Below, piece by piece: positions 42,438-50,524 of a DNA stretch of 64,000 bases. Within the stretch, counting starts at the first letter, position 1; each line of letters begins with the position of its first letter. The translations under genes and the position numbers were made by a program. Source of the stretch: Halothermothrix orenii H 168 (GTDB lineage: Bacteria > Bacillota > Halanaerobiia > Halanaerobiales > Halothermotrichaceae). Under the pieces are notes generated by a model. That model saw only the letters and a program-made list of their open reading frames with translations, was not told where the DNA came from and ran no database searches. Location of the stretch: contig NC_011899.1 in assembly GCF_000020485.1 (NCBI RefSeq), positions 807,937 through 871,936 on the forward strand, read 5' to 3'.

Positions 42438-42471
42438 ATTATCACAAAATTAGAGCAGGTGATAATTTATT

Positions 42472-43308
42472 ATGAGATTAGGTAAGCATGTATCTATCGC
42501 TGGTGGGCTTTATAAAGCAACAGATAGAGCCACTAAAATAGGGTGTAATGCCCTGCAAATTTTTGTAAAAAACCCACGTGGCTGGAAAATTAAAGAGGTT
42601 TCTGACTCAGAAATAAAAAAACTTAAAGACAATATTAAAAAAGAGAATATGTATCCCCTGGTGGTTCACTCTTCTTATTTAATTAACATGGCTACTCCCC
42701 GTGATGAGTTGTGGGAGAAGTCTGTCAATTCCTTAAAGAAAGAATATAAGAGGACTGAATTAATAAATGCTGATTATTTTGTAGTACATCCAGGTAGTCA
42801 TACCGGAAAAGGCCTTCATTTTGGTATTAACAGGATAATCGAGGCTATAAACAGTGTTTTTGGAGAAGTTAAAAATGGTCCCCAGCTATTGCTTGAAAAT
42901 GTTGCTGGAGCCGGTTCAAGTATAGGCTCGAATTTTACTGAGTTACGTGATATAATAAATAAAGTAGATGATTATGCCCGTATAGGGGTATGTCTTGATA
43001 CCTGTCATGCCTTTGCAGCAGGTTATGACCTAAGATATGAAGATGGTCTTGAAGAACTTTTAAATGATTTCGATAAGATTATCGGTCTTGATCTATTAAA
43101 GGTAATTCATTTAAATGATTCCAAATATGGACTCGCTTCTAATAAAGATGAACATGCCCATATAGGGGAAGGAGAAATTGGTGAAAAAGGAATTTCAAAT
43201 ATAATTAACCATCCACTCTTAAAGGACAAACCCTTTATACTGGAAACACCAAAATTTAGTGGTAGAGATAAAGATGTTGAGCTGGTTAATTTATTACGGA
43301 GGGATTAG
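42472..43308 (+). CDS. nfo: endonuclease IV (AP endonuclease)
   Basis: Cleaves DNA at abasic sites in base-excision repair. The 278-residue TIM barrel has zinc-ligand motifs: LGKHVSIAGGL, VVHSSYLINMA, DYFVVHPGSHTGKG, LLLENVAGAGSSIG, GVCLDTCHAFAAGYD, LKVIHLNDSKYGL and DEHAHIGEGEIG. All expected His, Glu and Asp ligands are visible. It is followed nine bases later by a helicase fusion gene. Confidence 0.97.
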   Translation: MRLGKHVSIAGGLYKATDRATKIGCNALQIFVKNPRGWKIKEVSDSEIKKLKDNIKKENMYPLVVHSSYLINMATPRDELWEKSVNSLKKEYKRTELINADYFVVHPGSHTGKGLHFGINRIIEAINSVFGEVKNGPQLLLENVAGAGSSIGSNFTELRDIINKVDDYARIGVCLDTCHAFAAGYDLRYEDGLEELLNDFDKIIGLDLLKVIHLNDSKYGLASNKDEHAHIGEGEIGEKGISNIINHPLLKDKPFILETPKFSGRDKDVELVNLLRRD

Positions 43309-46841: not shown

Positions 46842-47993
46842 CTAATCTTTTATAATTCTATTCAGGATTATATGACCCCCTATAGTTTGATTTGTTTCAC
46901 CTTCTATTAAAATATCTATGGCTTCAATACCAGGAACTGAAAAAAGGGTTCTGGTTATAGCTTCAACTGTATAATTTTCCAGGCCGCCACCTCCTTTAAA
47001 ATTTTCTTTTAGTTCTCTGGAGAAGTTAACTACAGCCACATTTCTTTTAACTGTCAGGGATTTTATTCTGGTCCCCTTAGGCAGGGGTGATACAAGTCCA
47101 TCGGGAGATGTTTTGAGCTGATTTAAGGCATGAATGGCCATTATTTCGTTTAGTTTCAGGCCACTGTATTTTTTGTTTAAGAGGACAGCAGTTGGATATG
47201 AGAGTTCTTTGCGGACCAGAAACATTGCTCCGTTGTAAGTCCCTATATAATATGTAAACATTCCTTTTTTGTCTTTTTTTATGGTTGGAGTACCATCTGT
47301 TGTTGGTTTTTCAGGATTACCAAAACTTGATTGTAAATAATTAATAATTCCTTTTGTAATTGCCCGGGCCAGATTTTTCTGGTATTCAGGATCAGTTAAT
47401 TTTTTACGATCAACCGGGTTTGAGATAAAGCCTGCCTCTATTAAGACTGCCGGGCAGGGGGATTGTTTCAGTACATAATAATTCCCTTTACTAAGGCTTC
47501 TATTATTTTCCTGCCTGATCATGACCAGTTCTTCATGAATGTATTTTGCCAGCTCTTTACTTTCAGAAGAGTCAGGTTTATAGAATACCTGACTACCCGA
47601 GGGTTGACTGGTAGGAAAATTATTTATATGAATACTGATAAATAGATCGGCTTGATATTCTCTGGCAATCTCCGGTCTATGTTTCAGGTCTTTATTCCTG
47701 TCATTCTGGTAAAGTTTGTCTTCATTTCTGGTCATTATAGGAATTATATTTACTTTTTTAAGTTCATCTACCAGATGTCTGGCTATTTCAAGGTTAATAT
47801 CTTTTTCAAATATATTACCATGGTGGGTTCCTGTATCTATACTCCCATGTCCTGGATCAACTACGACTTTAAAAACCATATCCTTAGTATTGGTTGGAAT
47901 AGAATGGAGACTAAAATATAAAAGGGTTGCAAGAACAATACCACCTAGCAGCAAACCAATAATTTTTTTATTCAACTTTAATATAAGAAACAT
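46842..47993 (-). CDS. N-acetylmuramoyl-L-alanine amidase fused to a GerMN domain
   Basis: A 383-residue exported protein on the minus strand. The N-terminal hydrophobic segment (IIGLLLGGIVLATLLYFSL) is a signal or anchor. An amidase-3 domain follows, with zinc ligands in VVVDPGHGSIDTG, EKDINLEIARHL, FISIHINNF and the catalytic Glu in LIEAGFISNP. A C-terminal GerMN (sporulation/germination) domain runs from about 255 (MFLVRKELSYPTA ... GTRIKSLTVKRNVAVVNFS). A GGAGG site precedes the ATG. The fusion suggests peptidoglycan remodelling in sporulation or germination. Confidence 0.9.
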   Translation of the reverse strand: MFLILKLNKKIIGLLLGGIVLATLLYFSLHSIPTNTKDMVFKVVVDPGHGSIDTGTHHGNIFEKDINLEIARHLVDELKKVNIIPIMTRNEDKLYQNDRNKDLKHRPEIAREYQADLFISIHINNFPTSQPSGSQVFYKPDSSESKELAKYIHEELVMIRQENNRSLSKGNYYVLKQSPCPAVLIEAGFISNPVDRKKLTDPEYQKNLARAITKGIINYLQSSFGNPEKPTTDGTPTIKKDKKGMFTYYIGTYNGAMFLVRKELSYPTAVLLNKKYSGLKLNEIMAIHALNQLKTSPDGLVSPLPKGTRIKSLTVKRNVAVVNFSRELKENFKGGGGLENYTVEAITRTLFSVPGIEAIDILIEGETNQTIGGHIILNRIIKD

Positions 47994-48209
47994 AATTTAC
48001 CTCCGTTTTTGTAGAGTTTTTATAATTTTTTGTAATAGTGTTTCTCTGTAAATATACACCCGTTTTTAATCCTTTATAATTTTACCTATGATTTTTACAA
48101 TTATATTCAATATATATTTTCATAATTTTTATTTATGTTATTGTTTTATTTTGTGTTTAAGAAGTTTTATATTATAAATCTTTAATCTGACAGTTATTAA
48201 AAAGAATAT
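47994..48209. other. divergent AT-rich region between amidase and deacetylase genes
   Basis: About 216 bases without a gene, upstream of both divergent genes. No convincing A-type promoter is visible. A TATAAT at 48205-48210 has CTGACA only 14 bases upstream. Sporulation-sigma promoters were considered but not convincing. Confidence 0.5.
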
Positions 48210-48258
48210 AATCCCTCCAGTTTGCATAAGTTTTATTTAGGAATAAATTGGAGGGATT
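48210..48258 (+). promoter_or_regulatory. hairpin masking the ribosome site of the deacetylase gene
   Basis: AATCCCTCCAGTTT (48210-48223) pairs with AAATTGGAGGGATT (48245-48258), 14 bp with one G-U and a 21-base loop; a further T-A pair extends it outward. The 3' arm contains the whole GGAGGG Shine-Dalgarno sequence. The ATG (48262) lies three bases beyond it. No T run follows, so it is not a terminator. Confidence 0.75.
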
Positions 48259-48261
48259 AGA

Positions 48262-49053
48262 ATGAATCGTATTTTAACCCTGGGAAAAAAAAGTATACTT
48301 GGTCTGGGGTTGCTTTTTTTTATTTCTGTATTTACGATCGGCTTTTTCGCGGGTGATAAATATGGTGATGTTATCCCTGTTTTGAATAAAAGACTGGTTC
48401 CCATATATAAGGTTGACAGGGTTGATAAAAAAATATCCATAACTCTGGATGGTACCTGGGGTGCTAATTATACAGAAGAATTACTTGATATTTTTGAAGA
48501 AAATGATGTGAAGGTTACATTTTTTTTTGCTGGTTACTGGCTGGAGAAATATCCTGATCTTGTTAAAAAGATAGCAGTTGAAGGTCATGATGTTGAAAAC
48601 CATACTTATACCCATCCCCATTGTAATTCTTTATCACCTGAACAAATAGAAGATGAACTAGAAAGAACCTCAGATTTAATTGAAGAATTAATAGGTAAGA
48701 GACCGAGATTTTTCCGTCCCCCATTTGGTGAATATAATAATAAGGTTATTGAAACTGCGACCGGTCTTGATTATCAGGTAGTACAATGGAGTCTTGATTC
48801 CCTTGACTGGCAAGAACCGGGTGTGCAGTATATTGTTGACCGTATTTTAAACAATGTTACATCTGGTGAAATTGTATTAATGCATAATAATGCTCCCCAT
48901 ACTCCTGAAGCATTAAGGATATTAATTCCGGAGTTAAAAAAACGGGGTTTTAAAATAGTCCCCCTGTCTGAATTAGTATATAAAGATAATTATTATATTC
49001 AGTCCCATTCCGGATTACAGGTAAGACAGAAGGGGGCAGGTGATAGAAATTGA
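48262..49053 (+). CDS. polysaccharide deacetylase, first of a pair
   Basis: A 263-residue NodB-homology protein with an N-terminal membrane anchor (SILGLGLLFFISVFTIGFF). Motifs are ITLDGTWG (motif 1, with Gly where many members have a second Asp), ENHTYTHPH (HxxxH metal ligands), RPPFGEYNNK, SLDSLDW and VLMHNN. It probably de-N-acetylates peptidoglycan, and PdaB-like members act in spores. Its ribosome site is buried in a strong hairpin. It overlaps the next deacetylase gene by four bases. Confidence 0.93.
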   Translation: MNRILTLGKKSILGLGLLFFISVFTIGFFAGDKYGDVIPVLNKRLVPIYKVDRVDKKISITLDGTWGANYTEELLDIFEENDVKVTFFFAGYWLEKYPDLVKKIAVEGHDVENHTYTHPHCNSLSPEQIEDELERTSDLIEELIGKRPRFFRPPFGEYNNKVIETATGLDYQVVQWSLDSLDWQEPGVQYIVDRILNNVTSGEIVLMHNNAPHTPEALRILIPELKKRGFKIVPLSELVYKDNYYIQSHSGLQVRQKGAGDRN

Positions 49054-49736
49054 TAAAAAAATATGTTGTGGTTATTGCCTTATTTATTGGAATTGTAGCC
49101 GGTATGGCCCGGCATGAATTAACCATGCCAGTTGTTAGCAGGCCAGATAGTCCCTTTTACCATGGTGTCAGGGGAAGAAATCAGGTAGCTATTACCGTTA
49201 ATGTGGACTGGGGGGAAAAATACCTTCCGGGTATGTTGAGGATATTACATGAGAACCAGGTAAAAGTAACTTTTTTTGTGACAGGAAAATGGGCCCGAAA
49301 ATGTCCTGATCTCCTGCAGGAAATGGCTGCAATGGGACATGAAATTGGGAATCATGGATATAACCATGCCCACCCGAAGCAGCTCAGCAATGAGGCTTTG
49401 GCAAAGTTAATTAAGGATAATGAAGAATTAATATACAAGGTAACCGGTCAAAGAACAAAGCTTTTTGCCCCACCATATGGTGAAGTTGATTCCAGGATAA
49501 CAAAGGTTGCCAGCAAGCTGGGTTATGATACCATAATGTGGTCAGCTGATACAGTTGACTGGCAAAGGCCTTCACCGGATATCATTGTGCAAAGAGTAAT
49601 GGCGAAAATTGACGATGGTGGTATAATTCTGATGCATCCAACTGAACCAACTCTTTATGCCCTTGAAGATATAATTAATAATCTGAGACAGAGAGGATAT
49701 GAGATAGTAACCGTATCTGAATTAATATCAAAGTAA
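49050..49736 (+). CDS. polysaccharide deacetylase, second of a pair
   Basis: A 228-residue NodB-domain protein with a signal anchor (KKYVVVIALFIGIVAGMA). The first motif reads ITVNVDWGEKY, with Asn in the usual catalytic-Asp position and Asp two residues later, a pattern seen in a clostridial subgroup. HxxxH (GNHGYNHAH), APPYGEVDS, SADTVDW and LMHPT are present. It starts with TTG at 49050, overlapping the previous stop, so the two are likely translated together. Confidence 0.92.
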   Translation: MIKKYVVVIALFIGIVAGMARHELTMPVVSRPDSPFYHGVRGRNQVAITVNVDWGEKYLPGMLRILHENQVKVTFFVTGKWARKCPDLLQEMAAMGHEIGNHGYNHAHPKQLSNEALAKLIKDNEELIYKVTGQRTKLFAPPYGEVDSRITKVASKLGYDTIMWSADTVDWQRPSPDIIVQRVMAKIDDGGIILMHPTEPTLYALEDIINNLRQRGYEIVTVSELISK

Positions 49737-50285: not shown

Positions 50286-50299
50286 CTGGAGTGGTTGTA

Positions 50300-50524
50300 A
50301 TGAAATTAAGAGACCTTAGTGGAAAAAAGTTAATAAACATTAAAACCGGTCGGGTCCTTGGTACAGTCAGGGATACTGATCTGGTTTTTGAGACTAATAC
50401 CGGAAGTATTGAATCTATTATATTTCAGCAGAAGGGTCTTAAAGGAGAAAAGTATATAGTTATTCCGGTTGGGGCTATAAAACAGGTAGGCACCAGAGTA
50501 ATACTGGTAGATTTGAATGAATAA
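50300..50524 (+). CDS. YlmC/YmxH family PRC-barrel protein
   Basis: A 74-residue protein beginning MKLRDLSGKKLINIKTGRVLGTV, matching the YlmC/YmxH family, a PRC-barrel group linked to sporulation in Firmicutes; the function is unclear. GGAG ends at 50291 and suits the ATG at 50300; a GTG at 50291 is inside the ribosome site. In Bacillus ymxH lies downstream of pnp and a deacetylase gene, which resembles the local order here. Confidence 0.85.
   Translation: MKLRDLSGKKLINIKTGRVLGTVRDTDLVFETNTGSIESIIFQQKGLKGEKYIVIPVGAIKQVGTRVILVDLNE

Follow-up and report, generated by a model that had tools for sequence, protein, structure and literature searches.

A Shine-Dalgarno-hiding hairpin at a pdaB-like gene of Halothermothrix orenii overlaps a sigma-E-type promoter motif and is a likely silencer of read-through transcripts

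Analysis of the window, the whole stretch of 64,000 nucleotides of Halothermothrix orenii DNA studied here, revealed a hairpin that hides the Shine-Dalgarno (SD) site of a pdaB-like gene and whose 5' arm lies between the two boxes of a sigma-E-type promoter motif. This hairpin probably surrounds a sporulation promoter and silences read-through transcripts, in a layout that recurs at other sporulation genes.

The stem consists of 16 pairs, two of which are G.U, between a 5' arm TAATCCCTCCAGTTTG at 48209-48224 and a 3' arm TAAATTGGAGGGATTA at 48244-48259 (both plus strand), which enclose a loop of 19 nt (48225-48243); the SD sequence GGAGGG lies within the 3' arm at 48250-48255 and the ATG of the gene is at 48262. 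The initial annotation had described this hairpin, and its sequence is as stated there with the stem one pair longer, while its remarks on a stability above chance, on the absence of a T run after the stem and on an overlapping second deacetylase gene were all borne out. The calculated free energy of the isolated hairpin is -22.0 kcal/mol at 37 C and -12.0 kcal/mol at 60 C, and in RNA with both arms the SD core has a calculated unpaired probability of at most 0.002 at 37 C. The 181-nt leader had a z-score of -2.89 against dinucleotide shuffles, equal stability being reached in 2 of 200, and of the 1117 gene starts predicted in the sampled 1.22 Mb, 2 had an SD-pairing score of at least 34, compared to 0.0 for shuffled upstream sequences. 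The window hairpin ranks second among the 1117 sampled gene starts; the sole higher score (L133:13000 region, minus strand, TGAAGAAGACACTGGATA / TATCCGGTGTTTTTTTTA; gene start 7030, reverse strand) belongs to a structure resembling an intrinsic terminator that overlaps a doubtful small ORF. Because no T run follows its stem, the window hairpin itself is not an intrinsic terminator.

Regarding the genes at the locus, the one behind the hairpin (48262-49053, plus strand) encodes a polysaccharide deacetylase (Pfam Polysacc_deac_1) that scored 219.9 bits against TIGR02764, the PdaB equivalog model; the cut-off of this model is higher (237.4 bits), and the protein is therefore referred to as PdaB-like and not filed as PdaB. 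The second deacetylase gene (49050-49736, plus strand, TTG start; YlxY/PdaB-like, TIGR02873 at 214.9 bits, below cut-off) overlaps the first by 4 nt and is probably translationally coupled to it. The upstream neighbour is divergent (46842-47993, minus strand) and encodes a CwlD-like amidase (TIGR02883 at 176.9 bits, cut-off of 221.55 not reached). Just past the deacetylase pair and dut, at 50291-50524, lies a second gene of the YlmC/YmxH family, without such a hairpin.

The position of the 5' arm between both promoter boxes suggests that it is probably the spacer of a sporulation promoter. The motif, on the plus strand, is composed of the -35 element GAATATA (48204-48210), a 14-nt spacer ATCCCTCCAGTTTG (48211-48224) and the -10 element CATAAGTT (48225-48232), the latter located in the hairpin loop. 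The sigma-E promoter consensus of Bacillus subtilis is KMATATT and CATACAHT separated by about 14 nt, and the window boxes fit this layout with a KMATATT-like and a CATA-type element at that distance. The form GAATAWH-N14-CATARRTW, with its fixed 14-nt spacing, is present upstream of the same gene in H. orenii and the eight nearest relatives found (L001-L009), looser forms are present in most other relatives, and the promoter motif is kept in relatives while the arm sequence is not. Within the sampled genome the promoter of the pdaB-like gene has the best promoter score. The layout of a -35 element and a CATA-containing -10 element is also that of sigma-E and sigma-K promoters of B. subtilis, a species in which SpoIIID binds a set of mother-cell genes that includes ybaN (pdaB) (PMC517825). 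A vegetative promoter with TATAAT at 48207-48212 was considered and rejected, as it has no properly spaced -35 box; its start would also fall inside the 5' arm. Elsewhere in the window (42440-42540) a sigma-E-like AAATATA-N14-CATAAATT is directly followed by a strong palindrome, AAACATAAACTAGGGCCCTAGTTTATGTTT, and a T run, with a gene at 42472.

At the usual distance from the -10 element, transcription is predicted to start at about 48239 (48236-48242, plus strand); this start lies in the loop, so that RNA from the gene's own promoter could not form the stem, which can probably form only in read-through RNA. In calculations for 60 C, 11.1 kcal/mol is needed to open the SD of the long leader, as against 3.6 kcal/mol in RNA from the predicted start, in which the site would be far more open. 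The initial annotation had named a transcription start within the 5' arm or beyond it as speaking against its reading, and just such a start is predicted from the conserved sigma-E-type promoter. Under the proposed mechanism, RNA from the mother-cell promoter would begin past the 5' arm with its SD open and would be translated, and RNA that enters from the upstream side, whether in growing cells or in the wrong compartment, would hold both arms, hide the SD and go untranslated; the spore-wall gene would thus be kept silent until its own promoter fires. Pervasive transcription affects sporulation in B. subtilis (PMC5540618); sporulation of H. orenii is unproven (PMC2626281).

The hairpin had initially been read as a true RNA switch, in which transcription from a promoter further upstream covers the whole leader and the stem opens through heat, a protein, a small RNA or processing. 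A very stable stem with a hidden SD agrees with this reading, and sigma-70-like sites occur further upstream, though at chance rate. Closure of the SD stands for any RNA with both arms, but no support was obtained for opening by temperature, a ligand, a protein or a small RNA. Folding of the leader at growth temperatures, as had been proposed, gave a hairpin that is shut even at 75 C, and since the calculated SD core was closed at all temperatures up to this value the hairpin is no RNA thermometer. A riboswitch was likewise discarded; the Rfam search returned two matches, far below gathering scores, and no family fits. The presence of a conserved sigma-E-type promoter with the 5' arm as its spacer, the lack of conservation of the arm sequence and the unrelated arms at other genes also argue against an RNA switch, which is considered very unlikely.

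Regarding recurrence in the H. orenii genome, 60 stretches of 20 kb were sampled, covering 46% of the single-contig genome of 2,578,146 bases, of which 58 were used together with the window, amounting to 1.22 Mb, and the 18 nt before each CATA were paired with the SD of that gene, with a threshold score of at least 22. In this test, which was devised once examples from the first two sample sets were already at hand, 13 of 331 CATA sites reached the threshold vs 115 of 25205 sites of other one-G/C tetramers (p = 1.3e-8), an approximately ninefold enrichment that concerns mostly spore genes (spoIIM, spoIIP, spoVK, yabQ, ylmC, ytaF, gerA). The 11 permutations of CATA yielded 0-4 genes each at the same score, and the TATAAT control sites yielded 3 of 220. 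Correctly spaced -35 motifs of the sigma-E or sigma-K type were present at 8 of the 13 hairpin genes vs 21 of the 263 remaining CATA genes (p = 5e-6). The 13 genes encode the PdaB-like deacetylase, a GerA family protein, DUF441, SpoIIM, a D,D-carboxypeptidase, a SpoVK-like protein, YabQ, a TIGR04086 family protein, YlmC/YmxH, RmlD, SpoIIP, YtaF and an aldo-keto reductase, the last of these being probably a chance case (AT-rich arms, little predicted effect); YtxC follows next below them with a score of 19. Arm sequences differ between hairpin genes (CCCTCCAGTTT, TCCCCCCG, ACCCATCTCCGG, CCTCACCCC). Opening the SD at 60 C takes a calculated mean of 7.2 kcal/mol in long leaders of the hairpin genes vs 1.4 kcal/mol from their predicted starts, the values for ordinary genes being 2.0 and 1.5 kcal/mol, respectively. 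SD hiding in general, irrespective of CATA, showed no excess in the first 0.82 Mb sampled, and in the 1.22 Mb strong scores were moderately over-represented (13 vs 3.8 expected at a score of at least 28). Smaller samples of other genomes contained zero matches in two cases and two matches in a third.

Two further leaders were observed in addition to these genes. Outside the sample, at L056:1501-1600 (1203470-1203570 of the same genome), an uncharacterised gene of about 180 aa is a further candidate, with the promoter GAATAAA-N14-CATAAATA and a spacer ATCCCCTCC complementary to its SD GGAGGGGAT. At L116:3872-4366, in the leader of a gene for a 165-aa protein for which Pfam and NCBIfam gave no match, the arms TAACCTCCCGGG / CCTGGGAGGTTG enclose an entire sigma-E-like promoter, GGATATT-N14-CATAAGGA.

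Comparison with related genomes, which had been suggested as a check of the pairing, gave a mixed outcome: at pdaB the pairing is weak or absent in most relatives and kept with a different sequence in three (L002, L007, L027), and all nine species tested have strong pairing at spoIIM. For a test of covariation, orthologues were taken from sporulating members of the order and promoters were picked by promoter score, not by pairing. The leaders of spoIIM and pdaB fit sigma-E, and those of spoVK and ylmC fit the sigma-K pattern MACM-N16-CATANNNTA. With H. orenii excluded, spacers paired better with their own SD than with the SDs of other species for spoIIM (p = 0.011), pdaB (p = 0.037), ylmC (p = 0.002) and spoVK (p = 0.004), with a combined p of 1.6e-5 for these four genes; the p-values are approximate because the rows are not independent, and arms shared among related rows make the swapping conservative. 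In the same test no covariation of spacer and SD was detected for spoIIP (p = 0.55). In spoIIP leaders (L210-L214, L219) the CATA box lies in or beside the 5' arm (CTCTCAT / ATGGGAG), and since the SD is within about 13 nt of this box the predicted mRNA leader is extremely short.

Template switching can perfect inverted repeats. The window hairpin could have arisen in this way or by drift, without function, the other cases being selected coincidences, and such an origin would be in keeping with a test framed post hoc, with the weak pairing of most pdaB orthologues and with the held-out third sample set, which taken alone pointed in the same direction and was not significant (2 of 92 vs 51 of 7681, p = 0.13). 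Chance is nevertheless regarded as an unlikely explanation, given that the enrichment is confined to CATA and not shared by its permutations, is concentrated at sporulation genes, and is matched by the own-over-swapped pairing in species other than H. orenii.

The -10 box is flanked by the two arms, which is also what might be seen if a repressor or a mother-cell regulator bound both arms as a DNA operator across the promoter; SpoIIID and GerR repress many sigma-E genes of B. subtilis, including spoIIM and spoIIP (PMC517825). The arms vary by gene, their common feature being complementarity to the gene's own SD, and those near-copies of the arm that were examined at other places in the genome do not coincide with promoter sites, so that an operator is very unlikely. 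As these near-copies are not comparable sites, membership of a repeat or operator family was also rejected.

Thus, silencing of read-through RNA is the preferred reading of the hairpin, and the same layout, with each gene having its own arms, is found at other sporulation genes of H. orenii and of its order. Counting against it are the post hoc framing of the CATA test with its non-significant held-out third, the lack of matches in the samples of two related genomes, the missing covariation at spoIIP, the weak pairing at pdaB in most relatives, the divergent orientation of the upstream neighbour in the window and the frequency of same-strand neighbours at hairpin genes, which is about that of the background. 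More tentatively, and with somewhat less than even probability, the reading might extend to the whole mother-cell regulon of sporulating Halanaerobiales, in which promoter spacers would be antisense to their own SDs and the sigma factor that starts an RNA would license its translation. Promoter and anti-SD would then evolve as a single unit, and the arrangement would be a regulon-wide bacterial equivalent of undecoded long isoforms. If true, silencing of this kind would give the sigma-factor cascade of a developmental regulon a second lock at the level of translation, would explain the silence of wall-cutting and membrane-remodelling spore genes packed 50-90 nt behind other genes and would impose a constraint on promoter evolution.

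Read-through-silencing hairpins have so far been known gene by gene, from phage T4 and from sigG of B. subtilis. In T4, gene e, soc, I-TevI and related late genes have a late promoter inside an SD-hiding hairpin, such that the long early RNA is silent (about 100-fold for gene e) and the short late RNA is translated (PMC3014915; PMC2988022); this arrangement serves a phage time programme with the T4 late sigma factor and is experimentally proven, whereas in H. orenii it is inferred. In B. subtilis, a large stem has been proposed to block translation of sigG in read-through RNA from the spoIIG promoter; transcripts of the sigG promoter itself are unable to form it (PMC5942855). Like the genes considered here sigG is a sporulation gene, but it is a single gene with the promoter of a forespore sigma factor, whereas here many genes with mother-cell promoters are concerned and the arm is in the spacer. 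In B. subtilis spoIIM and spoIIP are also sigma-E genes (PMC517825); no report of spacer complementarity to the SD in sigma-E or sigma-K promoters of this species, nor of regulon-wide use of spacer/SD hairpins, was found in the open-licence literature searched. The LUTI transcripts of yeast meiosis, poorly translated 5'-extended isoforms of developmental genes, are an analogy only, as they act by upstream ORFs and promoter interference and not by SD pairing (PMC8153250). The mechanism is thus already known from T4 late genes and sigG, and its spread over many mother-cell genes with covariation of spacer and SD appears to be new; the best reading is a gating of translation by the transcription start site, of the kind described for T4 gene e and B. 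subtilis sigG and here extended over a mother-cell regulon.
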